Source: Acidiferrobacter sp. (GTDB lineage Bacteria; Pseudomonadota; Gammaproteobacteria; Acidiferrobacterales; Acidiferrobacteraceae). From it: 42,659 nucleotides of DNA. The DNA lies in assembly GCA_027449165.1 (NCBI GenBank), contig DAIDMD010000137.1, forward strand, positions 1 to 42,659. Reading direction: 5' to 3'. The notes beneath the pieces were generated by a model, which did not search any database, was not told where the DNA came from, and saw only the letters and a program-made list of their open reading frames with translations. Of the stretch, positions 10,813 to 35,921 are shown piece by piece (the first letter of the stretch is position 1; each line of letters begins with the position of its first letter). Both the position numbers and the translations under genes were made by a program.

Positions 10813-11547
10813 TTAGGCCCGCACGGGCCCTTGCAGGCAGAGGTTCCTCAGGGCCTTGGTGTCGAGGATCTCGGTCTTGCGCCCTTCGGTCGCGATGAGT
10901 CCGTCGTCGCGCAGTTTCGAGAACATGCGGCTTACCGTTTCGAGCTTCAATCCAAGGTAGTTGCCGATCTCTTCGCGGGACATGGGCAGATGGATGATCG
11001 CGCCGGGCTGGCCGCGGGCCTCGAGACGGTCCGAGAGGTTCAGTAGGAAGGCCGCGACCTTGAGCTCGGCGGTCATCGTGCCCAGCACCATCATGAGGCC
11101 GTGGTCGCTCGCGATCGCGCCGCTCAGCAGCTTATGGAATTGATGCTGGAGGCGGGGGAGGTCGGACAGCAGCCCCTCTAGTCTCGCAAACGGGATCTCG
11201 CACACCTCGCTGTCCTCGAGTGCGACGGCGTTGCCGCGGTGCGCATCGGTGCTGATGGCATCGAGGCCCATGAGCTCGCCCTCCATGGGGAAGGCCGTGA
11301 TCTGCTCGAGCCCGCCTGCGCTCACCTCGTAGATCTTGAAAAACCCCGTACGTACCGCAGCCAGGGACTGCAATGGATCGCCGGCGCGAAACAGGTGCTG
11401 GCCGGCGAATACCCGGCGCCTGCGTTTGACAAGATCGTCGAGCCTCCCCAGCTCCTCGGCGTCGAGCCCCAGGGGGAGGCAGATTTCCCGTAAACTGCAG
11501 TTCGAACAGCGCTGTCTCAGGTTTGCCTCGAAGCTCGTAACCGCCAT
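10813..11547 (-). CDS. fnr: FNR-type oxygen-sensing transcription regulator
   Basis: A 244-residue Crp-family regulator with all four cysteines expected for the oxygen-labile [4Fe-4S] cluster: C14, C17 and C23 in CSNCSLREIC, plus C116 in SEVCEIPF. The spacing copies that of E. coli FNR (20, 23, 29, 122). A cyclic-nucleotide-binding-like beta roll follows, then a dimerisation helix and a winged HTH with LPMSREEIGNYLGLKLETVSRMFSKL; the E-x-x-SR recognition residues are those that read TTGAT half-sites. A perfect FNR box lies 100 bases upstream of the ATG, suggesting autoregulation. Boxes of the same type precede several other operons in the window. Anr, Btr and EtrA are other names for this type. 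Confidence 0.95.
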   Translation of the reverse strand: MAVTSFEANLRQRCSNCSLREICLPLGLDAEELGRLDDLVKRRRRVFAGQHLFRAGDPLQSLAAVRTGFFKIYEVSAGGLEQITAFPMEGELMGLDAISTDAHRGNAVALEDSEVCEIPFARLEGLLSDLPRLQHQFHKLLSGAIASDHGLMMVLGTMTAELKVAAFLLNLSDRLEARGQPGAIIHLPMSREEIGNYLGLKLETVSRMFSKLRDDGLIATEGRKTEILDTKALRNLCLQGPVRA

Positions 11548-18847: not shown

Positions 18848-19534
18848 CTAGTCGGGCAGCACCACCCCCGGCATGATCGCCCGCAGTCTTGCGGCAAGCT
18901 CCGGGGTGAGCCATGGACGATAACTTCCTGCGAGTCGCGGGTCCGGACAGCCCATCGGGCGGAAGTTCCTTAACGTCACGGAGCGCGCGCCCAGGGCGGC
19001 AAGCTCGGCGACCATGGTCGTGAGATCGCGGTCGGACAGGAGCTCGGGGTGGACGGTCGTGCGCAGCTCGTGGGGCTTGCCGCTTTGCAGCAGGATCTCG
19101 ACCGACTCGCGGGCCGCCGCGCCGCTCCCGTCCCGGGTGGTGATGGCGGGATAGCGGGCAAAGGGCCCCTTGACGTCAAGGCCCACCCAGTCGATGTTGC
19201 GAAGAAGATATTGGAAGCGCCGAGGTGATACACCGGCGGTGTGGAGCGCGGTCCCGAACCCGAGCGCGCGGACCTCCGCCAGCGCCTCTCCGACGGCCTT
19301 TGCCTGGGCCAGCGGTTCCCCGCCGCTTGCGACCACCGCATCCAGAAGGCCCACGCGGGTCTCCAGGAATCGGCGCACGGACGGCCACGACAAGGCTGCC
19401 CCGGTCGTCCAGAGGTGGCTATTGTGGCAATAGGGGCAGCGCCACGGACAGCCGCCGACGAACACAACGGCGGCCTGGCGCCCGGGATAGTCCACGCTGC
19501 TCCAGGGCACGAGGCCGCCCAGGCGCAGGTTCAC
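18848..19534 (-). CDS. nrdG: Anaerobic ribonucleoside-triphosphate reductase activating protein
   Basis: A 228-residue radical SAM enzyme that installs the glycyl radical on NrdD. The cluster motif is GCPWRCPYC (C29, C33, C36), preceded by SSVDYPG, with SGGEPL after it, typical of the longer NrdG2 subgroup. The start is taken as the GTG at 19534, which overlaps the stop of the small glycyl-radical gene (GTGA); the frame runs 35 codons further up without matching the family. The order nrdD, radical subunit, nrdG with overlaps implies one transcript under the FNR-like box at 21788-21801. Confidence 0.9.
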   Translation of the reverse strand: MNLRLGGLVPWSSVDYPGRQAAVVFVGGCPWRCPYCHNSHLWTTGAALSWPSVRRFLETRVGLLDAVVASGGEPLAQAKAVGEALAEVRALGFGTALHTAGVSPRRFQYLLRNIDWVGLDVKGPFARYPAITTRDGSGAAARESVEILLQSGKPHELRTTVHPELLSDRDLTTMVAELAALGARSVTLRNFRPMGCPDPRLAGSYRPWLTPELAARLRAIMPGVVLPD

Positions 19535-19713
19535 GCCGAAAGCCGCGCCTCCACGAAGAAGGTCCGCTCGTAATGCTCGCCCTTCTTGCCTTCGTTGAAC
19601 GAGGCCACCGGCCGATGGTAGCCCATCACCCGCGTCCACACCTCGCAGACCTGCCGTTCCTCGGGGCGCAGCCCGCCGCCGGTCTCGCTTCTACCGCTTG
19701 GTATCGTATTCAT
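19531..19713 (-). CDS. Separate glycyl-radical domain of anaerobic ribonucleotide reductase
   Basis: A 60-residue protein matching only the extreme C-terminus of class III ribonucleotide reductase. CEVWTRVMGYHRPVASF aligns with the RRVCGYLGSP region of E. coli NrdD, in which the glycine of RVCGY carries the radical; here that is Gly31. FNEGKKGEHYERTFF continues the same tail. The large NrdD upstream stops before this motif. The start at 19713 follows a clear GGAGG at -5 to -9; another in-frame ATG at 19731 overlaps the nrdD stop. Its own ribosome site argues for a genuine separate subunit rather than a frameshift. It overlaps nrdG by three bases. Confidence 0.82.
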   Translation of the reverse strand: MNTIPSGRSETGGGLRPEERQVCEVWTRVMGYHRPVASFNEGKKGEHYERTFFVEARLSA

Positions 19714-19727
19714 AACGTCCTCCAGTG

Positions 19728-21728
19728 TCATTCACCCTGTGCCAGGGCCCGCCGCCGCGCCCACGCCTCTTCGTCGCAGGTCGGGCAAAAGATGTGCTCG
19801 CCCGCGAGATAGCCGTGGCGCGGGCAGATCGAAAACGTCGGCGTGATGGTGATGTAGGGAAGCCGAAAGCGCGTCAAGGCGCGACGCACGAGGTCGCGCG
19901 CGACCGAGGCGTCCGACAACCGCTCGTTCATGTAGAGGTGCAGCACCGTGCCGCCGGTATAGCGTCTCTGGAGATCCTCCTGGCGCTCGAGCGCCTCGAA
20001 CGGGTCGTCGGTGAAGCCGACCGGCAGCTGCGACGAGTTCGTGTAGTAGGGGCGCTCGGTGGTCCCGGCCTGCAGGATGCCGGGAAAGCGCTTGCGGTCG
20101 GCGCGCGCGAACCGGTAGGTAGCTCCCTCGGCCGGAGAGGCCTCGAGGTTGTAGAGGTGGCCCGTCTGTTCCTGAAAGTCGGCGATCCGCGCACGGATAT
20201 GGTCGAGCAGACGGCAGGCGAACGCGTGCCCCTCGGGCCGCGTGATATCGATCTCGCCGGCCGTGAAGTTCCGCACCATCTCGTTGATCCCATTTACCCC
20301 GATGGTCGAGAAGTGGTTGCGCAAGGTGCCCAGGTAGCGCTTCGTGTAGGGGAACAGACCCTGGTCCATGTAGGTCTGTATGGCCTTGCGCTTGATCTCG
20401 AGGCTCGTGCGCGCGAGCTCGAGCAGCTGGTCGAGATTGCGGAACAGGCCCGCCTCGTCGCCGCGGTGCAGGTATCCCAAGCGCGCGCAATTGATGGTGA
20501 CGACCCCGAGCGACCCGGTCTGCTCGGCCGACCCGAACAGGCCGTTGCCGCGCTTCAAAAGCTCAGTGAGATCGAGCTGCAGGCGGCAGCACATGGAACG
20601 GACCATGTGCGGCTTCAGGTCGGAATTCAAGAAGTTCTGGAAGTAGGGCAGACCGTATTTCGCGGTCAGGGAGAAGAGCCGTTCGACATTCTCCCCTTCC
20701 CAGTCGAAGTCTGGGGTGATGTTGTAGGTCGGGATCGGGAACGTGAATACCCGGCCCTTGGCGTCGCCGGTCTCCATGACCTCGAGATAGGCCTTGTTGA
20801 TCATGGCCATCTCGGGCGCCAGCTCGCCGTAGGTAAAGGGCATCTCCTCGCCGCCCACGACCGGCACCTGGTCGCGCAGGTCCTCGGGGCAGGTCCAGTC
20901 GAAGGTCAGGTTGGTAAACGGCGTCTGGGTGCCCCAGCGCGAGGGGATGTTGAGGTTATAGATGAGCTCCTGGATGCACTGCAGGACCTCCTCATAGCGC
21001 ATGCGATCCTTGCGCACAAAGGGCGCGAGGTAGGTGTCGAACGAGCTGAAGGCCTGCGCGCCGGCCCATTCGTTCTGCAAGGTCCCGAGGAAGTTCACGA
21101 TCTGGCCGACGGCGCTCGAGAGGTGCTTGGGCGGGCTCGCCTCGACCTTGTTTGCGACCCCGTTTAGGCCCTCGTTGAGCAGCGTGCGCAAAGACCAGCC
21201 GGCGCAATAGCCGGACAGCATGTCGAGGTCGTGGATGTGCAGCGCGCCGTCTTGGTGTGCCTCGCCCACCTCCTTCGGGTAGACGTGGTTCAGCCAGAAG
21301 TTCGCGACCATCTTGCCCGACACGCTCAGTATGAGCCCGCCCAGCGAATAACCCTGGTTAGCATTGGCCTGTACCCGCCAATCGCGGCGATCCAGGTATT
21401 CGGTGATCGCTTCCTCGACCTCGACCCGGACCTTGCCTTGTTCGCGGGTCAGCCGCCGCTTCTCGCGGTAGACGATGTAGGCGCGCGCGGTGCGCCGGTA
21501 GCCGTGGGCCAGGAGGTTGTCTTCCACGAGGTCCTGCACCGTCTCCACGTCGGGGCTCCCCGGGGGACAGCGGGTCCCGACCTCCTGGGTCATGAGCGCC
21601 GCCTCGTCGGGCCCGTACTCGCCGGTCGCAAGCCCGGCGCGCAGCAGGGCGTAGTAGATCTTACGGTCATCGAAGTGTACGACACGACCGTCGCGCTTGC
21701 GTACCTGCTCGGGATATCCGGTGCCCAT
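19728..21728 (-). CDS. nrdD: Anaerobic ribonucleoside-triphosphate reductase, large part without glycyl-radical site
   Basis: A 666-residue class III reductase chain that makes deoxynucleotides without oxygen. An ATP-cone (about residues 6-95, VRKRDGRVVHFDDRKI) leads into the barrel domain with YSLGGL, HIHDLDMLSGYCAGWSL, CPEDLRDQ and TINCARLGY. It ends with SICPRHGYLAGEHIFCPTC (C635, C648, C651), a zinc-ribbon-like segment, and stops. The RVxGY glycyl-radical segment that normally follows is encoded by the next gene. The catalytic chain is otherwise complete. Transcription probably starts near 21753, 41.5 bases from the FNR-like box centre, with a 25-base leader. Confidence 0.93.
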   Translation of the reverse strand: MGTGYPEQVRKRDGRVVHFDDRKIYYALLRAGLATGEYGPDEAALMTQEVGTRCPPGSPDVETVQDLVEDNLLAHGYRRTARAYIVYREKRRLTREQGKVRVEVEEAITEYLDRRDWRVQANANQGYSLGGLILSVSGKMVANFWLNHVYPKEVGEAHQDGALHIHDLDMLSGYCAGWSLRTLLNEGLNGVANKVEASPPKHLSSAVGQIVNFLGTLQNEWAGAQAFSSFDTYLAPFVRKDRMRYEEVLQCIQELIYNLNIPSRWGTQTPFTNLTFDWTCPEDLRDQVPVVGGEEMPFTYGELAPEMAMINKAYLEVMETGDAKGRVFTFPIPTYNITPDFDWEGENVERLFSLTAKYGLPYFQNFLNSDLKPHMVRSMCCRLQLDLTELLKRGNGLFGSAEQTGSLGVVTINCARLGYLHRGDEAGLFRNLDQLLELARTSLEIKRKAIQTYMDQGLFPYTKRYLGTLRNHFSTIGVNGINEMVRNFTAGEIDITRPEGHAFACRLLDHIRARIADFQEQTGHLYNLEASPAEGATYRFARADRKRFPGILQAGTTERPYYTNSSQLPVGFTDDPFEALERQEDLQRRYTGGTVLHLYMNERLSDASVARDLVRRALTRFRLPYITITPTFSICPRHGYLAGEHIFCPTCDEEAWARRRALAQGE

Positions 21729-21787: not shown

Positions 21788-21801
21788 TTGACATCCGTCA
21801 A
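21788..21801. promoter_or_regulatory. FNR-like box between nrdD and the radical SAM-ubiUV operon
   Basis: TTGACATCCGTCAA is a perfect palindrome of the TTGAC variant half-site and matches TTGAT-N4-ATCAA at 8 of 10. At -41.5 it would place starts at about 21753 for nrdD and about 21836 for the rightward operon, both 20-25 bases before start codons, so it can serve both. Confidence 0.72.
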
Positions 21802-21855
21802 TTCGGCGCACCCCCCGTCTGCGTAGACTGCTGTCCCTGAATTGCGGATTCGCAG

Positions 21856-22542
21856 GTGGGGTGTGGCGTGCATGTGACGACGGCGGTGGCAAGGGGAGAC
21901 GACGCCGGGCGCCGGTCCCCTGTGGTGGCCGCCTATCGCCTGCGCGGCGCGGTCTATCTGAACCTCACCAACCGTTGTACCCTGCGGTGCCGGTTTTGCC
22001 CGAAGTTCCATGGTCTGTGGACGGTCGGGGAGGCGCGGCTGCGGCTCCGGGCGGCCGACGAGCCGTCGGTCGCAACCCTGATCGAGGCGGCGGGCGCCGA
22101 AGGGCCGTGCACCGAATACGTCTTTTGCGGGTTGGGGGAGCCTACCACCCGCTGGGCTGATCTCCTGACCGTGGCGGCGGCCTTGCGCGCTGCGGGTCGG
22201 CCGATACGCCTCAACACCGACGGCTTGGCAAGCCTCGTCCATGGCCGCGACGTCGCGCCGGAGCTCGCAGGCCTTGTAGACCACGTCTCGATCTCGCTCA
22301 ACGCCGCCGACGAGGCGACCTACGAACGCCTCTGCCGCCCGAGCCGCCCCGGGAGCTACGCGGCCATGCTGGCGTTCGCGGCGCGCTGCCGGGCCTTCGT
22401 GCCGCAAGTCACCCTGACGGCCGTCGCCGGCCTGGAGGGCGTGGACATAGACGCATGCGCGCGCATCGCGCGCGAGTTGGGTGTCGCGTTTCGGGCGCGC
22501 CCCCTGGAGTCGACCGATGGCCGTTCTTTCCGAGTTCGTTGA
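21856..22542 (+). CDS. Radical SAM protein, TatD-linked (TIGR04038-like) type
   Basis: A 228-residue radical SAM protein. The cluster motif is LNLTNRCTLRCRFC (C41, C45, C48), with the GLGEPT segment and SISLNAAD strand expected of the barrel. It is shorter than most radical SAM enzymes and has no extra cluster domain. Its resemblance is to small radical SAM proteins found beside TatD nucleases; no substrate is known. The first codon is uncertain among several in-frame GTG codons (21856, 21868, 21874). It opens a five-gene operon that contains ubiU and ubiV, behind an FNR-like box, which suggests work under low oxygen. Confidence 0.72.
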   Translation: MGCGVHVTTAVARGDDAGRRSPVVAAYRLRGAVYLNLTNRCTLRCRFCPKFHGLWTVGEARLRLRAADEPSVATLIEAAGAEGPCTEYVFCGLGEPTTRWADLLTVAAALRAAGRPIRLNTDGLASLVHGRDVAPELAGLVDHVSISLNAADEATYERLCRPSRPGSYAAMLAFAARCRAFVPQVTLTAVAGLEGVDIDACARIARELGVAFRARPLESTDGRSFRVR

Positions 22543-23449
22543 GACCTTCGGACAGCAGCAGCTCCGCGAGTTCGGGGAGCGCGTCCACAAGGTCACCGTA
22601 GATGCCGGCTTTACCTGCCCCAATCGGGACGGCCTGCGGGGGCGCGGGGGCTGCACGTTCTGCAACAATAAGTCGTTTCATCCGGCGACGGCCGCCCGCG
22701 GCATCGCCGATCAGGTGCGCGAAGGCATGCGATGCGTCTGGCGGCGGACCCGCGCGCGCAAGGTCATCGCCTATTTCCAGACCTACACGAACACCTATGC
22801 CCCCCTGCCGCAGCTTGCGGCCGCCTATGAGGAGGCCCTGGCGGTGCCGGGCGTCGTGGGGCTCAGCGTCGGGACGCGCCCCGATTGCCTGCCCGAGCCC
22901 GTGGCGGCCTTGATCGCGTCGTATCGCGACCGGGGGCTGCGGGTGTGGGTGGAGCTCGGGCTGCAATCGAGCTTCGACGAGACCCTTGCGCGCGTCAACC
23001 GCGGGCACGGCTACCGCGAGTATCGCGAGGCCATCGCCCTGTTGCGGCGCTACCGGATCCCGGTGTGCACCCATCTGATCGTGGGCCTCCCGGGGGAGGG
23101 CCGCGAGCATGCCCTGCACACGTTGGCCCGGGTCCTGTCTTTGGGCGTCTCCGGACTGAAGATCCACCCGCTGCACGTCGTGCGCGGCAGCCGCCTGGCC
23201 CATGATTTTCGGGCCGGGCGGATCGTACCGCTCGACCTTTCGACCTACGTCGGCATCGTCGCCGATCTCGTCGAACGGACCCCCCGCCATGTGGTCTTCC
23301 ATCGCCTCACCGGGACGGCCAAGGCGGCCCTGCTGCTTGCCCCCGACTGGTGTCTGGGGAAGTGGCGGGTGCTGAACGCCATCACCGCCGAATTGGCGCG
23401 GCGCGGGACTCGCCAGGGGGTGCTGGCGTGCGAGGGGGCGTCATGGTAG
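22517..23449 (+). CDS. YhcC-family radical SAM protein (TIGR01212)
   Basis: A 310-residue radical SAM protein aligning along its length with E. coli YhcC: HKVTVDAGFTCPNRDG, GRGGCTFCN (cluster cysteines C34, C46, C49), YFQTYTNTYAP, VGLSVGTRPDC, VELGLQSSFDETL, HLIVGLPGEG and GLKIHPLHVV. Its function is not established. The ATG at 22517 is chosen because the alignment begins there; it overlaps the previous gene by 26 bases. Placement directly before ubiU is notable because ubiU and ubiV carry out the oxygen-independent hydroxylations of ubiquinone synthesis. Confidence 0.87.
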   Translation: MAVLSEFVETFGQQQLREFGERVHKVTVDAGFTCPNRDGLRGRGGCTFCNNKSFHPATAARGIADQVREGMRCVWRRTRARKVIAYFQTYTNTYAPLPQLAAAYEEALAVPGVVGLSVGTRPDCLPEPVAALIASYRDRGLRVWVELGLQSSFDETLARVNRGHGYREYREAIALLRRYRIPVCTHLIVGLPGEGREHALHTLARVLSLGVSGLKIHPLHVVRGSRLAHDFRAGRIVPLDLSTYVGIVADLVERTPRHVVFHRLTGTAKAALLLAPDWCLGKWRVLNAITAELARRGTRQGVLACEGASW

Positions 23450-24450
23450 CCGTCCCCGAGCTCGTGTGTCCGGCCGGGACCCTGGCGGCCCTCGAGGCCG
23501 CAGTCGATCACGGGGCCGATGCCGTTTACGTGGGCCTGCGCAACGAGACCAACGCGCGCAACTTCCCGGGCCTCAACCTGACGGCGACCGATCTCGCGTC
23601 CGGCGTCCGCTATGCCCATGACCGCAAACGCAAGGTCTACCTGGCCCTGAACACCTATGCCCAGCCGGGGCGGGTGGCCTTGTGGCGGCAGACCGCCGAC
23701 CAGGCGGTCGCCGCCGGGGTCGACGCCATCATCGCCGCCGATCTTGCCGTTTTGCGCCATTGTGCCGAACGCCACCCCGCGGTGCCGCGCCACCTGTCGG
23801 TCCAGGGATCGGCCACCAATGCCGAGTCGCTGCGGTTTTACGCCGAGACCTTCGGGGCCGTCCGCGCCATCCTGCCGCGCGTCCTGGCCCTGAATCAGGT
23901 GCGCAAGATTGCCACGGGCGCGCCCCTGGACCTCGAGGTCTTCGCGTTCGGAGGCCTGTGCGTCATGGTCGAGGGGCGCTGCGCGCTCTCTTCCTATGCC
24001 ACCGGGGTCTCCCCCAACACCTGCGGGGCCTGTTCGCCGGCGTCCGCGGTGCGCTGGGAAGAGGAGGGCGGCCGCCGGCGCGTGCGCCTGAACGGCATCC
24101 TGATCGACGCATTCCAAAAGAACGAGAAGGCCGGCTACCCCACGATCTGCAAGGGACGCTTCAAGGTCGACAACCGCATCACCTATGCCCTCGAGGAGCC
24201 GACCAGCCTGAATGTGTTGCCGATCCTGGGCGATCTGGCGCGCGTCCCGGTGCGCGCGATCAAGATCGAGGGGCGCCAGCGCTCCCCATCCTACGTCGCG
24301 CGCGTCACCGCCATCATGCGCGCCGCCCTCGACGCCTGTGCCCGCGACCCGGAGGGCTTCACCGTCCGTCCGGAATGGGCCGAGGGCCTCAACGCCTTGT
24401 CCGAGGGCCACAAGCAGACCCTGGGCGCCTTCCATAGGCCGTGGCGATGA
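23443..24450 (+). CDS. ubiU: UbiU, oxygen-independent ubiquinone hydroxylation protein (U32 family)
   Basis: UbiU works with UbiV to hydroxylate the ubiquinone ring without oxygen. Although the family is named peptidase U32, this subgroup binds a [4Fe-4S] cluster. The four cluster cysteines are at C173, C180, C197 and C236, each offset by exactly four from C169, C176, C193 and C232 of E. coli UbiU. Other shared stretches are PELVCPAGTLAAL, TNARNFPGLNLT, HLSVQGSATN, NEKAGYPTICKGR and KIEGRQRSPSYV. The 335-residue length is normal. The ATG at 23443 overlaps the YhcC-like stop by seven bases. Confidence 0.95.
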   Translation: MVAVPELVCPAGTLAALEAAVDHGADAVYVGLRNETNARNFPGLNLTATDLASGVRYAHDRKRKVYLALNTYAQPGRVALWRQTADQAVAAGVDAIIAADLAVLRHCAERHPAVPRHLSVQGSATNAESLRFYAETFGAVRAILPRVLALNQVRKIATGAPLDLEVFAFGGLCVMVEGRCALSSYATGVSPNTCGACSPASAVRWEEEGGRRRVRLNGILIDAFQKNEKAGYPTICKGRFKVDNRITYALEEPTSLNVLPILGDLARVPVRAIKIEGRQRSPSYVARVTAIMRAALDACARDPEGFTVRPEWAEGLNALSEGHKQTLGAFHRPWR

Positions 24451-25331
24451 GGCTCGCCCTCGCCCCCATACCGTTCTTCTGGCCGGCCGACGCCCTCGCC
24501 GACTTCTACCGGATGATCGCGCAGACGGCGGTCGATATCGTCTATTTGGGCGAGACCGTCTGCTACAAGCGCCGCGGTCCTACCCTGGCCGAGTGGATGG
24601 CGATCGCCGAGGGGCTTGCCGATCACGGCAAGGAGGTGGTGCTGTCGAGCCTGGTGCTGGTCGACGGCGAGGCCGAGCTGAAGGCGACCCGCAGGCTGTG
24701 CGAGAACGGCCGTTTCCTGGTGGAGGCCAACGACATGAGCGCGGTCTCCTTATGCCGCGGCGCGCGCTTTGTCGCCGGCGCCACGCTGAACATCTATAAC
24801 GAGGACGCCCTGGGGATACTGGCCGATGCCGGCGCCGTGCGGTTCGTGGCGTCCCTGGAGTTGAGCGGTACCGCCCTCGCGACCTTGCGTGCCTCGGGTC
24901 CCGCGGACATCGGCTGCGAGGCCCTGGCCTTCGGTCGCCCGGCGCTGGCCTATTCGGCGCGCTGTTTCAGCGCGCGCAACGCCGACCGCGGCAAGGATCA
25001 GTGCGAGTGGGTCTGCGAGCGGGAACCCGAAGGGGTCCTGGTCCGGACCCAGGAGGACGACGCGTTTCTCGCCCTAAACGGTCTTCAGATCCATGCCGCG
25101 CGCCCGGTCAATTATCTGGCCGAGGTCGATGCCATGCGCGATGCGGGCGTCGACATCCTGCGCATCATGCCGGAGGTCCGCGATACGGCGCTCGTCATCG
25201 ACGCCTTTCGCGGCGTCCTCGACGGGCGTTACCCCGTCACCGAGGCCCAGGCGCGTCTCGCCCCCGTGACCGGCGGCCAGGACGCCAACGGCTATTGGCG
25301 GGGGGCAGCCGGACGCAGCCACGTCCCGTGA
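24447..25331 (+). CDS. ubiV: UbiV, oxygen-independent ubiquinone hydroxylation protein (U32 family)
   Basis: The partner of UbiU. The 294-residue protein starts LALAPIPFFWPADALADFY and YLGETVCYKRR. Cluster cysteines are C39, C173, C186 and C190, reproducing the C39 and C-x12-C-x3-C spacing of E. coli UbiV. The ATG at 24447 overlaps the ubiU stop as ATGA; a GTG two codons earlier is possible. With UbiT (30866-31300) it completes the UbiTUV set of the anaerobic route. The stop overlaps the GTG of the lipoate-ligase/DUF116 gene, so all three are likely translated in concert. Confidence 0.94.
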   Translation: MRLALAPIPFFWPADALADFYRMIAQTAVDIVYLGETVCYKRRGPTLAEWMAIAEGLADHGKEVVLSSLVLVDGEAELKATRRLCENGRFLVEANDMSAVSLCRGARFVAGATLNIYNEDALGILADAGAVRFVASLELSGTALATLRASGPADIGCEALAFGRPALAYSARCFSARNADRGKDQCEWVCEREPEGVLVRTQEDDAFLALNGLQIHAARPVNYLAEVDAMRDAGVDILRIMPEVRDTALVIDAFRGVLDGRYPVTEAQARLAPVTGGQDANGYWRGAAGRSHVP

Positions 25332-26866
25332 CCCTCGTCTGGCACGACGCCCGGTGTCTGAGGCCCGAGCAATTCCCGGCCTATGAGGAGGCGCACACGG
25401 CGAGGGCATCGCGCGGCGAGGCCGTCCTCGGTTTTGTGCGTCTCGCGCGCTGTGCGCTCGCCGGGGCCCTCGAGGACCCGCAGCGCGCGCTGCGCCTGTC
25501 GTATATCGGTGACCGCTTTCCGGTCGTAAGGCGGCTGACCGGGGGCGGGAGCCTGTCCCTCGACCCCGACACCTTGATCGTCGTGCTCGCCCTGCCCGCG
25601 GGCCGCTATGCGGCGGCCGCACCCGATAGCCTGATGGCCGCGTTCGCATCGCCGCTGCTTGCGGCCATTCGAGGATGCGGGGCCGACGTTGCGTTCGCGC
25701 CCCCCAATGATCTCGTCGCCGCCGGGCGCAAGGTGGCCAGCGCCTTCCTCACGCGCCGCGCGGGCGTGGTTCTGTTCGAGGCCGTCGTGCCGCTCTCCCT
25801 GGATGTCGAGGAGCTCTTGAAGACCCTCCGGCTCCCCCTGGAGAAGCTCTCCGAACAGGGACTCCTCGCGGCCCGCCAGCGATTTGCGCCGCTGCGGACC
25901 CTCATCCCCGGCCTGCGATCGGGGCCGTTGCGCGCCCGGATCGCCGCCGAGACGGGGCGCGCCCTGGGTCTTGAGGTCCGCCGGGAGCCGCCCCCCGCGG
26001 TCGGGCTGGCGCGCCCCGTCGGGCCGGATGACCGGCCGCCGCCCGATGTCCAGGCCTTCTTAAAGACCCCCGGCGGCATCCTGTATCTGGATGTCTGGCT
26101 CGATCGGGGATCTGTCATACGGGAGGCCCGCTTCACGGGCGGCGTGGCCTGCCTCGATCCCGGCCTCTTCCCCCGCCTGCAGGGATCCCTCGGCGCCACC
26201 GACGTCGCCCAGGCCGAGTCCACGCTTGCGAAGGCCCTGGAGGGCCCACCCCCGGACATCATCGGGGTGGCCGCTGCGGATATCGTCTACCTGGGCCATC
26301 TATGCGCGGCGCGCTTCGATGTCGGCCGCCGGCTGGGTCTTGCGGCGGCCACCCAGATCAGCACCTTCAGCCCCGACCGCGGGGCCTCGGTCGAGGCGAT
26401 CCTGGCTTCCATCGACGCGGTCCTGCTGCCCTACTGCGCCAAGCCAACCTGGTGCAAATGGCGGCACCGCGACGGCTGTCCCGAGTGCGGACAATGCGCG
26501 GTGGGCGAGGCCTACGGCCTGGCGCGCGAACGGGACCTCACGGTCATCACCATTACCAACTACGAGCATCTGCGCACGGTCCTTGCCGACCTCAAGGGGC
26601 GCGGCGCGCGCGCCTTTCTGGGCGTCTGTTGCACGGACTTTTTCCTAAAGCGCGACTACGCCTTCATAGAGGCCGGGGTCCCCGCGGTCTTTTTGGATAT
26701 CGGAGGGGATACCTGTTATACCCTCCGCCAGGAAGAGGCCGCCTATGCCGGACGTTTCGAGGCCCAGGCCTATATGGATGCGCGGCTCCTGCAGCGTCTC
26801 CTCGATTGGCGGGATCGACTGGCGGCCGCCCCTGGTCGCCGCGAACCGCCATCGTCCTGCGCATGA
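25328..26866 (+). CDS. Lipoate-protein ligase A-like protein fused to DUF116
   Basis: A 512-residue three-part protein. Residues 1-235 resemble the LplA/BPL catalytic domain: RRLTGGG at 69-74, PPNDLVAAGRKVAS with the presumed lipoyl-AMP lysine K135, and LEKLSEQGLLAARQRFAPL. Residues 245-315 (LKTPGGILYLDVWLDRG, FTGG) resemble the LplA accessory domain. Residues 340-490 are DUF116, with a cysteine cluster C370, C376, C384, C387, C390, C434, C435 and C463, which could bind metal or Fe-S. The GTG start overlaps the ubiV stop (GTGA). No lipoyl acceptor is encoded nearby. The fusion and coupling to ubiV suggest a link to anaerobic ubiquinone synthesis or to lipoylation under low oxygen; the function is unknown. 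Confidence 0.85.
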   Translation: MTLVWHDARCLRPEQFPAYEEAHTARASRGEAVLGFVRLARCALAGALEDPQRALRLSYIGDRFPVVRRLTGGGSLSLDPDTLIVVLALPAGRYAAAAPDSLMAAFASPLLAAIRGCGADVAFAPPNDLVAAGRKVASAFLTRRAGVVLFEAVVPLSLDVEELLKTLRLPLEKLSEQGLLAARQRFAPLRTLIPGLRSGPLRARIAAETGRALGLEVRREPPPAVGLARPVGPDDRPPPDVQAFLKTPGGILYLDVWLDRGSVIREARFTGGVACLDPGLFPRLQGSLGATDVAQAESTLAKALEGPPPDIIGVAAADIVYLGHLCAARFDVGRRLGLAAATQISTFSPDRGASVEAILASIDAVLLPYCAKPTWCKWRHRDGCPECGQCAVGEAYGLARERDLTVITITNYEHLRTVLADLKGRGARAFLGVCCTDFFLKRDYAFIEAGVPAVFLDIGGDTCYTLRQEEAAYAGRFEAQAYMDARLLQRLLDWRDRLAAAPGRREPPSSCA

Positions 26867-30865: not shown

Positions 30866-31300
30866 TTAGGGAAGAAGGGCGCGCAGCCGCTTTTTGTGGC
30901 GGTAGATCGCGCTCTCCAGGGCGTGCCGCAATTGCAGTGCGACGCCGGTATCGCCTTCCACGCACAATCGGCGATCGAAGAACAGTGCGTCCGCGTCCTC
31001 GGTCTGCAGGAGGAGCGCCATAAACGACCGCATCTCGCCGCGTATGCAGGTCTTCCAGGGGGTCGGCGGCGCGGGCCACAGGCGTCCATTGCGGATCACA
31101 AAGCCGATTGCAAGGTGCGGGTTGGTGATCTCGAGACGCACCCGAGTGCCCGACAGGTCATTCAAGGAACGGTCCGAGATCAGCAGGATATTGGCCATGA
31201 GCGCGCCGCCCAGGGCAATGGCCGGCGCCGGCAGCACCTTGATCCCGAGGTCCAGGGCGCGGGGCGCGGTCTGTGAGATGATGTCGGACACCAAGGTCAT
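30866..31300 (-). CDS. ubiT: UbiT, SCP2-domain lipid carrier for anaerobic ubiquinone synthesis
   Basis: A 144-residue SCP2 (sterol-carrier-like) protein aligned with E. coli UbiT (YhbT): LLLQTEDADALFFDRRLCVEGDTGVAL matches the conserved C-terminal half, described here in two overlapping parts LLLQTEDADALFF and RRLCVEGDTGVAL. UbiT binds prenylated ubiquinone intermediates. The frame opens at 31348, but the ATG at 31300 matches the homologue's start and avoids coding through the FNR box. The gene diverges from ubiD, with two FNR-like boxes between. This completes UbiT-UbiU-UbiV in one window, although ubiT is 4 kb away from ubiUV. Confidence 0.85.
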   Translation of the reverse strand: MTLVSDIISQTAPRALDLGIKVLPAPAIALGGALMANILLISDRSLNDLSGTRVRLEITNPHLAIGFVIRNGRLWPAPPTPWKTCIRGEMRSFMALLLQTEDADALFFDRRLCVEGDTGVALQLRHALESAIYRHKKRLRALLP

Positions 31301-31334: not shown

Positions 31335-31348
31335 TTGATGCGCGTCAA
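31335..31348. promoter_or_regulatory. FNR box in the ubiT-ubiD intergenic region
   Basis: TTGATGCGCGTCAA matches the FNR consensus at 9 of 10. Placed at -41.5 it would start ubiD transcription near 31383, 22 bases before the ATG at 31405. Confidence 0.72.
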
Positions 31349-31404: not shown

Positions 31405-32868
31405 ATGTTTACCGATATGCGCCAATTCCTTGCGCACCTCGAGCGCCAGAAGCTCCTGGCGCGCGTGACTGCACCGGTTAGTGCCCATCTGGAGATCACC
31501 GAGATCTGTCGGCGGGCCATCATGGCCCAGGGGCCGGCGCTGCTGTTCGAGCACGTCGACGGCGGGACCGTGCCGGTGGTGGGGAACCTGTTTGGGACCC
31601 GCGAGCGCGTCTTGCAGGCCATGGATCTCGACGACAGCGCCGCCCTGCGTTCGCTAGGCGAGCTCCTTGGGCGCATCAAGGAGCCCCGTTGGCCGCGCGG
31701 TACCGGCGAGGCCATCCAGCATCTGCCCATCATCGGCCGCCTGTGGGCGGCCCGCGCGCGGGTCGTGGGGGAGCCGGCGCCGGTCCACGAGTGCGTCCAG
31801 GAGGGTCCGGCCGTCGATCTCGAGGCCCTGCCGATCTCGCACTGCTGGCCCGAGGATGCCGGCCGTCTCCTCACCTTCGGTCTGGTCATTACCCGGCCGG
31901 GGCGCGAGGGGCGGCACAACGTGGCGGTCTACCGCCAGCAGCTGATCGGCCGCAACCGCCTCATCATGCTCTGGCTGGCCCACCGGGGCGGCGCCGGCGA
32001 CTATGCGCGGTTTCGCGAGACTTACCCCGACGAGCCGTTTCCGGTGGCGGTGGCCATCGGCGCGGATCCGGCGCTCACCATAGCCGCGGTCGCGCCCATC
32101 CCCGATACCCTGTCCGAGTACCAGTTCGCAGGCCTTTTGCGCGGCGCCCGCACCGAGCTTGCGCGCTCGGGCAACGGATTGCTGGTGCCGGCGCGCGCCG
32201 AGATCGTATTGGAGGGCGTAATCGCCCCCGACGATACCGCCGTGGAGGGACCGTTTGGCGATCACACCGGCTACTACAATGCCCAGGACCGGTTCCCGGT
32301 CATGACCGTGACCCGCGTGACCCACCGTCATGCCCCTCTCTATCAGACCACCTACATGGGGCGCTCGCCCCATGACGAGCCCTCGGTATTGGCCGGCGCC
32401 CTGAACGAGGTCTTCGTGCCCCTGCTGCAACAACAGTTTCCCGAGATCACCGATTTCTACCTGCCCCCGGAGGCCTGCTCCTACCGGGTCGCGGTTGTGA
32501 GCATTCGCAAACGTTATCCCGGCCATGCCCGCCGCATCATGTTCGGCATATGGTCCTACCTCCGCCAGTTCACCTACACCAAGTTCGTGATCGTCACCGA
32601 CGACGACATCGATGTGCGCAACTGGTCGGAGGTGATTTGGGCCCTGGTGACCCGCGCCGATCCCGCCCGCGACGCGGTCATCCTCACGGACACGCCGATC
32701 GATTATCTGGATTTCGCGAGCCCCGAGGCCGGCCTGGGCGGCAAGATGGGCCTGGATGCCACGCTGAAGCGGCCCCCCGAGACCACCCGTCCCCCCGGCC
32801 GGCCCATCCGCCCGGATCCGCGGACCCAAGCCGCGGTCGCCGATATCTGCGCGGCCTTGGGCCTGTGA
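31405..32868 (+). CDS. ubiD: UbiD, 3-polyprenyl-4-hydroxybenzoate decarboxylase
   Basis: UbiD decarboxylates polyprenyl-hydroxybenzoate with prenylated FMN from UbiX. The 487-residue protein carries HLEITEICRRAIMAQGPALLF, WLAHRGGA, PDEPFPVAVAIGADPA, the EGPFGDHTGYYN active-site segment and VTDDDIDVRNWSEVIWA. ATG 31405 fits the homologue start; ATG 31417 is an alternative, and neither has a strong ribosome site. The frame begins earlier, inside the second FNR-like site, which is unlikely to be coding. Sitting opposite ubiT behind shared FNR boxes ties it to the anaerobic quinone pathway. Confidence 0.95.
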   Translation: MFTDMRQFLAHLERQKLLARVTAPVSAHLEITEICRRAIMAQGPALLFEHVDGGTVPVVGNLFGTRERVLQAMDLDDSAALRSLGELLGRIKEPRWPRGTGEAIQHLPIIGRLWAARARVVGEPAPVHECVQEGPAVDLEALPISHCWPEDAGRLLTFGLVITRPGREGRHNVAVYRQQLIGRNRLIMLWLAHRGGAGDYARFRETYPDEPFPVAVAIGADPALTIAAVAPIPDTLSEYQFAGLLRGARTELARSGNGLLVPARAEIVLEGVIAPDDTAVEGPFGDHTGYYNAQDRFPVMTVTRVTHRHAPLYQTTYMGRSPHDEPSVLAGALNEVFVPLLQQQFPEITDFYLPPEACSYRVAVVSIRKRYPGHARRIMFGIWSYLRQFTYTKFVIVTDDDIDVRNWSEVIWALVTRADPARDAVILTDTPIDYLDFASPEAGLGGKMGLDATLKRPPETTRPPGRPIRPDPRTQAAVADICAALGL

Positions 32869-32875
32869 GCGTATA

Positions 32876-32889
32876 TTGATAATAGTCAA
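32876..32889 (+). promoter_or_regulatory. FNR box upstream of hemN
   Basis: TTGATAATAGTCAA matches the FNR consensus at 9 of 10. The centre is 55.5 bases from the hemN ATG; at -41.5 transcription would start near 32924, leaving room for the AGGA ribosome site at 32927-32930. Confidence 0.82.
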
Positions 32890-32937: not shown

Positions 32938-34311
32938 ATGAACGCTCAGTTTGACGCATCGCTTATCGCCCGCTATGGGGAGTCGGCGCCGCGCTATACC
33001 TCGTACCCTCCGGCCACGCAATTCCATGGCCAGTTCGGGGTCGATGACCTGAGCCGGGCGCTCGCGGCCCGGCCCGCCGGTCAGGCGTGGTCGCTCTATG
33101 TGCACGTCCCGTTCTGCGAGTCGGTGTGCTATTACTGCGCGTGCAACAAGACCGTGACCAAGCACCATGAGCGCGCCAAGCCCTATGTGGGACGCGTGGC
33201 CAGGGAGCTTTCGCTGCTCTCACCTCTGCTTGGCGCACGCCCTCCGCTGGATCAGCTCCATTGGGGCGGCGGGACGCCCACCTTCCTCGACCATGACGAG
33301 ATGCATGCCCTGATGTGCGCGATCGCCGAGCGCTTCGCCCTGCGATCCGGAGACGGCGGCGAGTACTCGATCGAGATCGACCCGCGCCATGCCTCCGACG
33401 CAACGCTCGCGCTCCTGCGGGCCATCGGGTTCAATCGCTTGAGCCTCGGTGTCCAGGACTTCGACCCCCAGGTGCAGCGCGCCATCAACCGCGAGCAGTC
33501 CTTCGCGCTCGTGCGTCACGTCGCCGACGCCGCGCGCGCCCTGGGCTTCCGGTCCTTGAGCGTGGATCTGATCTACGGCCTGCCGCGGCAGACCCGCGAC
33601 AGCTTCGCGCGCACGCTCGATCGTCTGCGCGAGATCGCGCCGGACCGGGTGTCGCTCTTCAATTACGCCCATCTCCCGGAACGCTTCAAGCCGCAGCGGC
33701 GCATCAATGCCGCGGAGATCCCCGATGGCCTCACCAAGATCGCCATCCTAAGCGATACCGTCGAGACCCTGATCGGGGCCGGCTACGTCTATATCGGGTT
33801 GGACCATTTCGCCAAGGCCGACGACGAGCTCGCCCGCGCGCAACGCGAACGCACGCTCGCGCGCAATTTCCAGGGATATTCGACGCACGGCCACCTCGAT
33901 GTCCTGGGCGTGGGGGCCTCGGCGGTGAGCCGCATAGGCGAGGTCTACAGCCAGAACGCTTGGGACCTGAAGGAATACGAGGATCTTGTCGATCAAGGGA
34001 CGCTCCCCGTGCGCCGCGGGTTCGAGTTGAGCGCCGATGACATCGTGCGCCGCGAGGTCATCAACGACCTTTTGTGTCATATGGAGTGTGACATAGCGGC
34101 GGTCGAGGCCCGCCACGGCCTGCGTTTCGCGACCTATTTCGCATCCGAACTCAAGCGTCTCGAACCTTTTATCCACGATGGCCTCGTGGAGGCGGACGGC
34201 AAGACGATCGCGGTGACCGCGCGCGGCCAGATGTTGGTGCGTGCGATCTGCGCGGTCTTCGACCGCTACCTGCTCATCGCCGATCGCCGGCGATTTTCGC
34301 GCGTTGTCTAG
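32938..34311 (+). CDS. hemN: Oxygen-independent coproporphyrinogen III oxidase
   Basis: HemN converts coproporphyrinogen III to protoporphyrinogen IX by radical SAM chemistry without oxygen. The 457 residues match the family length. Motifs: RYTSYPPATQF, YVHVPFCESVCYYCACNK with cluster cysteines C60, C64, C67 (and C69), HWGGGTPTF, SIEIDPRH, SLGVQDFDP and DLIYGLPRQT, with GYVYIGLDHFAKADDEL in the second half. It has an AGGA ribosome site seven bases before the ATG and a strong FNR box upstream. A cytochrome c5 gene follows 31 bases later and may be cotranscribed. Confidence 0.97.
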   Translation: MNAQFDASLIARYGESAPRYTSYPPATQFHGQFGVDDLSRALAARPAGQAWSLYVHVPFCESVCYYCACNKTVTKHHERAKPYVGRVARELSLLSPLLGARPPLDQLHWGGGTPTFLDHDEMHALMCAIAERFALRSGDGGEYSIEIDPRHASDATLALLRAIGFNRLSLGVQDFDPQVQRAINREQSFALVRHVADAARALGFRSLSVDLIYGLPRQTRDSFARTLDRLREIAPDRVSLFNYAHLPERFKPQRRINAAEIPDGLTKIAILSDTVETLIGAGYVYIGLDHFAKADDELARAQRERTLARNFQGYSTHGHLDVLGVGASAVSRIGEVYSQNAWDLKEYEDLVDQGTLPVRRGFELSADDIVRREVINDLLCHMECDIAAVEARHGLRFATYFASELKRLEPFIHDGLVEADGKTIAVTARGQMLVRAICAVFDRYLLIADRRRFSRVV

Positions 34312-34342: not shown

Positions 34343-34681
34343 ATGCCGCGTCCCGTGCGTCTCCCGATCCTGATCCTCGCGCTGTTCGCGACCGATGCAT
34401 CCGCCAAGGTCCTGACCGGCCGGCAGGTCTTCGACCAGACCTGCCACACCTGCCATTCCCGCGGGGTCGCCGGCGCGCCCAAATTCGGCGACCGCGCCGC
34501 CTGGCGAGCGCATCTCGCGAAGGGGCTCAAGGTCCTGGAGGCCCACGCCATCCACGGCTATTACGGCCACAGCTTCATGCCCCCCAAGGGCGGTAACGAG
34601 TCCTTGACCGACAGCGAGGTGCGGGCGGCGGTGCGTTACATGGTCGCGGCGGTCAGCACGCAGCGCCCCGGGGCCCCTTGA
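34343..34681 (+). CDS. Cytochrome c5-type monohaem protein
   Basis: A 112-residue periplasmic c-type cytochrome. The signal peptide is PVRLPILILALFATDASA, and the haem site is CHTCH (one haem), with a C-terminal MPPKGGNESLTDSEVRAAVRYMV in which the methionine is the probable axial ligand. The GAPKFGDRAAWRAH segment is typical of the c5 group. It would carry electrons in the periplasm. The ATG at 34343 gives a complete signal peptide; the frame is open earlier but overlaps hemN. Its stop codon lies inside the FNR box of the next gene. Confidence 0.85.
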   Translation: MPRPVRLPILILALFATDASAKVLTGRQVFDQTCHTCHSRGVAGAPKFGDRAAWRAHLAKGLKVLEAHAIHGYYGHSFMPPKGGNESLTDSEVRAAVRYMVAAVSTQRPGAP

Positions 34682-34691
34682 TCTAAGTCAA
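34678..34691 (+). promoter_or_regulatory. FNR box upstream of the nitronate monooxygenase-like gene
   Basis: TTGATCTAAGTCAA matches the FNR consensus at 9 of 10 and overlaps the stop codon of the cytochrome gene (34679-34681). Its centre is only 40.5 bases from the ATG at 34725, so a -41.5 promoter would start transcription at the start codon itself. Confidence 0.72.
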
Positions 34692-34724
34692 TGAATGGCC
34701 GGACCATCGGACTAAGCTCAATCA

Positions 34725-35921
34725 ATGACATCTGCAATCGCATCACGGTTACCGAAGCTGAGCCTGAGGGGTCGGCAGTTGTTGCCCATATTCCAGGGCG
34801 GCATGGGTGTGGCCATCTCCGCCCACAAACTTGCCTCGGCGGTGGCGCGCGAAGGTGCGGTGGGGACTATCGCGAGCGTCGACCTGCGGCATCTGCACCC
34901 GGACATCATGAGCCGCCTGCGGCGCTGCCGGGACACCAATAAGATGCTCGAGGCGAACCTCGAGGCCCTGGACCGCGAGGTGAAGGCCGCGCGCGCCGCC
35001 AGCGGCCCGGCGGGCTTCATCGCCGTCAATGTCATGCGCGCGCTCAACCACTACGCCGAATTCGTTCGTCAGGCCTGTGTGAGCGGGGCCAACGCCATCG
35101 TCATGGGGGCGGGGTTGCCGCTCGATCTCCCGGAACTCACCCAGGGCCACGACGTGGCCCTGATCCCCATCCTCTCCGAGGAGCGCGGGATCGAGGTCCT
35201 GTTGCGCAAATGGATGCGTAAGGGCCGGCTCCCGGACGCCGTCATCATCGAACACCCGGGCCATGCCGGGGGGCATCTCGGGGCGCCGCGGCTTGCCGAC
35301 GTCGAGTCCCCGCGTTTCGATTTCCGCCATGTCCTGAAAGAGGCCCTGGCGCTCTTTAAGAAGCTCGGCATCGCCGCCGAACGCATCCCGCTCATCCCGG
35401 CGGGCGGCATCGGATCGTTCCGGGCCATACGCGAGCTGCTCGACCGGGGCGCCTCTGGGGTGCAGTTGGGGACTGCGTTTGCGGTCACCGAGGAGTGCGA
35501 TGCGCATCCGAACTTCAAGAGGGTGTTGGCGGAGGCGCGACGCGAGGATATCGTCACCTTCATGAGCGCGGCGGGTCTGCCTGCGCGCGCGGTCCTGACG
35601 CCGTGGCTCAAGCGCTATCTGGCGCGCGAGACCCTTCTGAAGGCCCGGGCCAGCGATCGTTGCGGGGGGTGTGCGAGCCGCCTCGAATGCCTGAGTCACT
35701 GTGGCTTCAAGGACGGCAATCCCGAGGCCGGGCAGTTTTGTATCGAGACCCAACTGGCCGCCGCGGCCAAGGGTAATGTCGAGCAAGGACTCTTTTTTCG
35801 AGGGGGGTCGCCATTGCCCTTCGGCCGCGAGATCCGTCCGGTGCGCGATCTCCTCGAGTATCTTTTGACGGGCGTGGCGCCCGCGCTGGCGCAAGCCCCG
35901 GCCGTCTCCCTGATCGCCTGA
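34725..35921 (+). CDS. Nitronate monooxygenase (2-nitropropane dioxygenase) family protein with C-terminal cysteine cluster
   Basis: A 398-residue FMN-binding TIM-barrel protein: PIFQGGMGVAISAHKLA at the start, EHPGHAGGHLGAP (the catalytic-histidine region), PAGGIGSFRAIRELL and GASGVQLGTAFAVTEE. After the barrel, residues from about 310 hold CGGCASRLECLSHC and a further cysteine in GQFCIETQLA, so a metal or Fe-S site is possible; this long form is distinct from classical nitronate monooxygenases. The substrate is unknown; enoyl-ACP reductase FabK is a distant relative. An FNR box lies immediately upstream. A DUF2249-HHE gene follows after ten bases. Confidence 0.85.
   Translation: MTSAIASRLPKLSLRGRQLLPIFQGGMGVAISAHKLASAVAREGAVGTIASVDLRHLHPDIMSRLRRCRDTNKMLEANLEALDREVKAARAASGPAGFIAVNVMRALNHYAEFVRQACVSGANAIVMGAGLPLDLPELTQGHDVALIPILSEERGIEVLLRKWMRKGRLPDAVIIEHPGHAGGHLGAPRLADVESPRFDFRHVLKEALALFKKLGIAAERIPLIPAGGIGSFRAIRELLDRGASGVQLGTAFAVTEECDAHPNFKRVLAEARREDIVTFMSAAGLPARAVLTPWLKRYLARETLLKARASDRCGGCASRLECLSHCGFKDGNPEAGQFCIETQLAAAAKGNVEQGLFFRGGSPLPFGREIRPVRDLLEYLLTGVAPALAQAPAVSLIA

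Follow-up and report, generated by a model that had tools for sequence, protein, structure and literature searches.

We analysed a window of 42,659 nucleotides (the whole contig DAIDMD010000137.1, our contig C137) from a genome of Acidiferrobacter sp. (2.08 Mb, 77% complete), in which ubiU and ubiV, the genes for oxygen-independent hydroxylation of ubiquinone precursors, are embedded in a five-gene operon. The last gene of this operon encodes a lipoate-protein ligase (LplA) domain fused to a DUF116 domain, and this LplA-DUF116 protein, which accompanies ubiUV even in distantly related bacteria, may be a helper of the anaerobic ubiquinone pathway that has so far escaped notice. Where the electrons go and what the iron-sulfur (Fe-S) clusters do during ring hydroxylation by UbiUV are questions that the literature leaves open (PMC11574389). 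A gene that accompanies ubiUV and encodes a cysteine-rich domain represents a concrete candidate. The five genes are:

21856..22542 (start possibly 21922), + strand: rSAM1, a small radical S-adenosylmethionine (SAM) protein of the TIGR04038 family, from a profile match and a CX3CX2C motif (C41, C45, C48)
22517..23449, + strand: rSAM2, a radical SAM protein of the TIGR01212 family (tRNA modification protein MnmL/YtqA), from a profile match
23443..24450, + strand: ubiU, from a profile match and its cysteine motif
24447..25331, + strand: ubiV, from a profile match and its cysteine motif
25328..26866, + strand: the LplA-DUF116 fusion, from Pfam matches, predicted fold and alignment

The coordinates bear out the single run proposed in the initial annotation, with neighbouring genes overlapping by 26, 7, 4 and 4 bases. 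The first four genes pass the curated NCBIfam cut-offs (rSAM1, 207.7 bits against 129.7; rSAM2, 336.5 against 180; UbiU, full length, 507.9 against 440 for NF047963; UbiV, 334.7 against 275 for NF047965), and the fusion passes those of Pfam (LplA-B_cat, PF21948, 51.2 bits against 27; DUF116, PF01976, 28.6 against a gathering cut-off of 25, a close call). All eight cluster cysteines, claimed earlier to stand at the spacing of Escherichia coli, were located in both proteins: C173, C180, C197 and C236 of UbiU form the motif CX6CX16CX38C, and C39, C173, C186 and C190 of UbiV the motif CXnCX12CX3C, as shown for the E. coli proteins (PMC6747719). Judged by profile and motif, UbiU and UbiV are thus authentic. 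With ubiT and ubiD 4–5 kb downstream of the operon, this region is best explained as an oxygen-independent ubiquinone module comprising UbiU, UbiV, UbiT and UbiD.

The association of the fusion with UbiUV was assessed in a class sample of 370 genomes, 100 of which encode UbiU and 15 LplA-DUF116, all counts being uncorrected for relatedness. UbiU was found in 14 of the 15 carriers of the fusion versus 86 of the 355 other genomes (Fisher p 6e-8), and in 11 of the 14 co-carriers the fusion gene is adjacent to ubiU. A scan of named genomes, covering the best 80 of 145 LplA-DUF116 loci, placed ubiU or ubiV within 10 kb of the fusion in 56 of these 80. The linked loci belong to Acidiferrobacterales, Ectothiorhodospira, Thioalkalivibrio, Acidithiobacillus and several beta lineages, and their usual order is mnmL-ubiU-ubiV-fusion, often followed by ubiT and nrdD, so that the fusion often lies exactly between ubiV and ubiT. 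Copies away from ubiUV occur in 21 genomes, among which 17 encode UbiU elsewhere and two more UbiV (19 of 21); some of the copies without nearby ubiUV sit at contig ends, where neighbours are possibly missing. Among the same best 80 loci, none lies outside Pseudomonadota by record name except L124, a metagenome-assembled genome named Candidatus Micrarchaeota, which carries ubiV, LplA-DUF116 and nrdG and is probably misbinned. No copy was found on plasmids, and a phylum-wide sample was too sparse to use (3 carriers in 397 genomes). Several congeners also possess a second LplA-DUF116 copy, approximately 48–50% identical, at an unlinked locus (L057–L060, L076–L078), where its neighbours are a small GTPase-like gene and large unassigned genes.

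The gene order is likewise retained in relatives. The five genes keep their arrangement in family f1, as far as the contigs extend, and in the loci fetched from family f5; in family f7 the TIGR01212 gene is absent and TIGR04038, ubiU, ubiV and LplA-DUF116 still stand together. In 75 UbiU loci fetched from the class sample, mostly one per family, the genes beside ubiU included mnmL in 42, TIGR04038 in 13 and LplA-DUF116 in seven. Coupling of the three additional genes to ubiUV beyond close relatives, which the initial annotation had set as its test, was therefore found across many families, and a coupling confined to close relatives was rejected on the same ground. When adjacency of the fusion was mapped on the tree of UbiU, at least 10 changes were required against a shuffled-label mean of 40.7, indicating that it is inherited in blocks, yet has been repeatedly gained or lost. 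As the first tree held five rows suspected to be misassigned U32 paralogs, because together they made up a single very distant clade, it was rebuilt with a changed UbiU selection; the rebuilt tree may retain some suspected paralogs, and the minimum was 10 in both trees. Evolutionary distances of the fusion also correlate with those of UbiU and UbiV (0.87–0.91), but this does not single out UbiUV, because the class III (anaerobic) ribonucleotide reductase NrdD gives 0.89.

Several observations weigh against a role of the fusion in ubiquinone synthesis. Approximately 86% of the UbiU genomes in the class sample lack it, and anaerobic ubiquinone synthesis in E. coli proceeds with UbiUVT. Two nearly complete genomes (G390, 95%; G427, 98%) carry the fusion without UbiUV, and in several alpha and gamma lineages it stands alone, far from ubiUV. 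NrdD was detected in 37 of the 370 genomes, 28 of them with UbiU, and among UbiU carriers the fusion is present in 7 of 28 with NrdD versus 7 of 72 without, an enrichment also expected from a general anoxic regulon. Neither a structure nor a publication showing cluster binding by DUF116, or contact with UbiUV, was found. As LplA-DUF116 and TIGR04038 are each missing from most genomes with UbiU, none of the three additional genes is generally required, and the fusion is not essential to the anaerobic pathway.

Two of these observations, the occurrence of the fusion without UbiUV and its slight enrichment with NrdD among UbiU genomes, favour another explanation. In this view, unrelated oxygen-independent replacements (UbiUV, MnmL and, in the adjoining region, NrdD and HemN) are bundled here and linked solely through FNR, and LplA-DUF116 and TIGR04038 have anoxic jobs unrelated to ubiquinone. 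We take this explanation seriously, while being more inclined to doubt it than to accept it. Indeed, a shared regulator alone leaves unexplained why the fusion so frequently comes immediately after ubiV in distantly related lineages, and why its carriers have UbiU in 14 of 15 cases and NrdD in only 7 of 15. On the strength of this tight position, and because the fusion tracks UbiU more closely than NrdD, we prefer the reading in which LplA-DUF116 helps UbiUV as a lineage-restricted accessory, perhaps as a redox partner, although our confidence in it falls a little short of even. The proposal that all three additional genes serve ubiquinone hydroxylation is not supported as a joint claim, and a strong case can be made for the fusion only.

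The features of the protein itself bear on what such an accessory could do. Its predicted model is of high confidence (mean predicted local distance difference test, pLDDT, 94.8), and residues 1–325 adopt a two-domain lipoate-protein ligase fold (Z 27.5 to 5ij6 over 297 residues). Residues 336–500 constitute the DUF116 domain, which is Rossmann-like (domain model pLDDT 93.8) and had no informative relative in the PDB, the matches being generic Rossmann-like ones with a best Z of 8.7 to a designed protein. Eight cysteines of this domain (C370, C376, C384, C387, C390, C434, C435 and C463) are kept in 58–61 of 61 aligned members. An earlier prediction saw in DUF116 (COG1852) a flavodoxin-like protein of electron transfer, and some bacteria have it fused to a polyprenyl synthetase (PMC5898192); our literature search for DUF116 together with lipoate returned nothing.

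Given the complete two-domain ligase fold and the retention of the catalytic lysine in 60 of the 61 members, together with the GGG motif, the fusion could also be an ordinary lipoate-protein ligase of anoxic conditions, serving the lipoyl domains of housekeeping dehydrogenases or a sulfur-oxidation carrier, with DUF116 sensing redox state or supplying sulfur. Many of its carriers are presumably sulfur oxidisers, as we gather from their names and genera, which would suit such a function. However, LipA and LipB are encoded in the same window, and ordinary LplA-like matches exist elsewhere in most related genomes. Moreover, the fusion falls far below every NCBIfam lipoate-ligase cut-off (34.9 of 280 bits for TIGR00545 and related families; 47.6 of 550 for LplAB), for which reason it was not filed as LplA, and the histidine of GGGxYHD is replaced by L, V or another residue in nearly all members. 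The position behind ubiV would also be left unexplained, and we consider an ordinary ligase decidedly improbable.

Returning to the accessory reading, the mechanism that we favour starts from the reported use of prephenate as hydroxyl source (PMC11574389). UbiU and UbiV would take the hydroxyl group from prephenate and would have to hand on the released electrons. The DUF116 domain, whose eight cysteines offer room for one or two Fe-S clusters, could receive or relay these electrons, and the lipoate-ligase part might bind or attach an acyl or lipoyl group used in the electron step. Taken as a whole, this picture of LplA-DUF116 as the redox partner of prephenate-dependent hydroxylation, with a two-cluster Fe-S domain and possibly a ligase-bound lipoyl or acyl group, and with lineages devoid of the fusion using another acceptor, is unlikely to be correct. 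What the analysis demonstrates is the operon with its family assignments, the conservation of the box, the coupling and the predicted folds; cluster binding, electron transfer and any effect on ubiquinone are what we infer.

The two radical SAM genes lead to different conclusions. The initial annotation had given none of the three additional genes an assigned role, which is wrong for the second one: NCBIfam names it MnmL/YtqA, a tRNA modification protein. In the 75 loci, most of those in which mnmL adjoins ubiU came from different families, and the literature searched contained no mention of this pairing. Among 12 genomes, nine have MnmL without MnmC above its cut-off, one has MnmC without MnmL and two have neither. 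The corresponding step in E. coli is carried out by MnmC(o), which is FAD (flavin adenine dinucleotide)-dependent (PMC9976899, PMC3936742). MnmC(o) presumably needs oxygen. As the family has a role on tRNA and never occurred together with MnmC in these 12 genomes, MnmL is probably an anoxic tRNA enzyme; it would have a separate job, the oxygen-independent maturation of tRNA wobble uridine in replacement of the flavoenzyme MnmC(o). On the same two grounds, mnmL was rejected as a ubiquinone enzyme, contrary to what had been suggested, and this agrees with the view of the operon as an assembly of unrelated anoxic replacements. The pairing of mnmL with ubiU, seen in over half of the loci sampled, suggests a joint expression of anoxic quinone synthesis and tRNA wobble modification.

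TIGR04038 was detected in 59 of the 370 genomes, 39 with UbiU (p 5e-12) and 20 without, and lies within 4 kb of UbiU in 20 genomes. Away from ubiUV, its neighbours are mostly unrelated between lineages. A strict link to ubiUV was rejected because of the 20 carriers without UbiU and these unrelated neighbours, which likewise speak for independent functions gathered under one regulator. TIGR04038 is a small radical SAM enzyme often, but not always, tied to ubiUV. The literature searched yielded nothing on TIGR04038 or MnmL, and the portions of the ubiUV literature consulted contained no mention of radical SAM, lipoate-ligase or DUF116 neighbours.

The regulatory elements of the window are:

21788..21801: FNR-type box TTGACATCCGTCAA, lying between nrdD and the first operon gene, its centre 61.5 bases 5' of the GTG at 21856
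31335..31348: FNR-type box TTGATGCGCGTCAA, between the divergent ubiT and ubiD
32876..32889: FNR-type box TTGATAATAGTCAA, 5' of hemN
10813..11547, - strand: Fnr/Anr-type regulator (NF008365, 222.8 bits, just below the cut-off of 228)
11647: perfect box TTGATTAGTATCAA, belonging to the Fnr/Anr-type regulator gene

The operon box TTGACATCCGTCAA is two mismatches away from the FNR consensus TTGATNNNNATCAA, and 17 boxes with two mismatches were found in the window versus approximately 18 expected (our own estimate, assuming uniform base composition). As this count is no better than chance, the box was rejected as significant by itself. It is nevertheless credible because its position is conserved: a box with 0–2 mismatches, in several cases perfect, stands at the same place in the relatives examined from families f1, f5 and f7. 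The FNR-like box described in the initial annotation is thus confirmed, through conservation rather than through its match, and it agrees with the FNR sites that precede ubiTUV in most Pseudomonadota (PMC11707229). Boxes with 0–1 mismatch also precede fnr, ubiT/ubiD, hemN and a gene at 34779. The best explanation is that the ubiquinone module is controlled by an FNR-type regulator together with other oxygen-independent enzymes; the presence of NrdD, HemN, fnr and boxes of a common type around the operon is again what a bundle of unrelated replacements would predict. Within 34678–35921, an FNR-type box stands before a gene whose match to FabK is weak (80 of 453 bits) and which recurs beside hemN in relatives.

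The neighbouring genes referred to above are:

18848..19534, - strand: nrdG-type activase (TIGR02495, 173 bits)
19531..19713, - strand: separate 60-residue glycyl-radical piece of NrdD (PF13597 positions 531–562)
19728..21728, - strand, divergent from the operon: nrdD, class III ribonucleotide reductase without its glycyl-radical tail (PF13597 positions 2–530 only)
30866..31300, - strand: ubiT (SCP2 domain), anaerobic ubiquinone accessory factor (NF047962, 73.9 bits against a cut-off of 46.9)
31405..32868, + strand: ubiD-family decarboxylase, from a profile match
32938..34311, + strand: hemN, oxygen-independent coproporphyrinogen III oxidase (TIGR00538, 546 bits)

The division of NrdD is a side finding of this work. 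The glycyl-radical tail (ERQxCEVWTRVMGYHRPVxSFN) forms a separate small open reading frame in 39 of 39 nrdD genes beside these loci, including those of the window and of L066, L071, L105, L112, L118, L131, L206 and others, and it is unannotated in several plasmid records. Most NrdD carriers of the class sample show a profile match that stops near position 530. The match extends to 562 in seven genomes, all of them without UbiU; UbiU is present in most of those with the shorter match. The literature consulted describes a split class II enzyme but no split class III NrdD.

Compared with known systems, rSAM1 belongs to a family described as TatD-associated, whereas its neighbours here are nrdD and mnmL, and the MnmL/YtqA member differs from those known by its location in an FNR-type ubiquinone operon. 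Like LplA (5ij6, 5iby, 1x2g), the fusion possesses both LplA domains and the RRxTGGG and ND...K motifs, but it differs by its C-terminal DUF116, by the replaced histidine of GGGxYHD and by scores below the family cut-offs. What it shares with DUF116/COG1852/arCOG02078 proteins is a cysteine-rich domain whose core is flavodoxin- or Rossmann-like, but archaeal members are described as membrane-anchored (PMC5898192), whereas DUF116 is in this case joined to LplA and coupled to ubiUV. Finally, the module resembles the ubiTUV locus of Pseudomonadota (yhbTUV in E. coli; PMC6747719, PMC11707229) in that ubiV directly follows ubiU, the eight cluster cysteines are present, UbiT is encoded close by and an FNR-type box precedes the first gene. 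It differs from this locus in that ubiT lies on the other strand at a distance of 5.5 kb, and in the presence of TIGR04038 and mnmL before ubiU and of LplA-DUF116 after ubiV.

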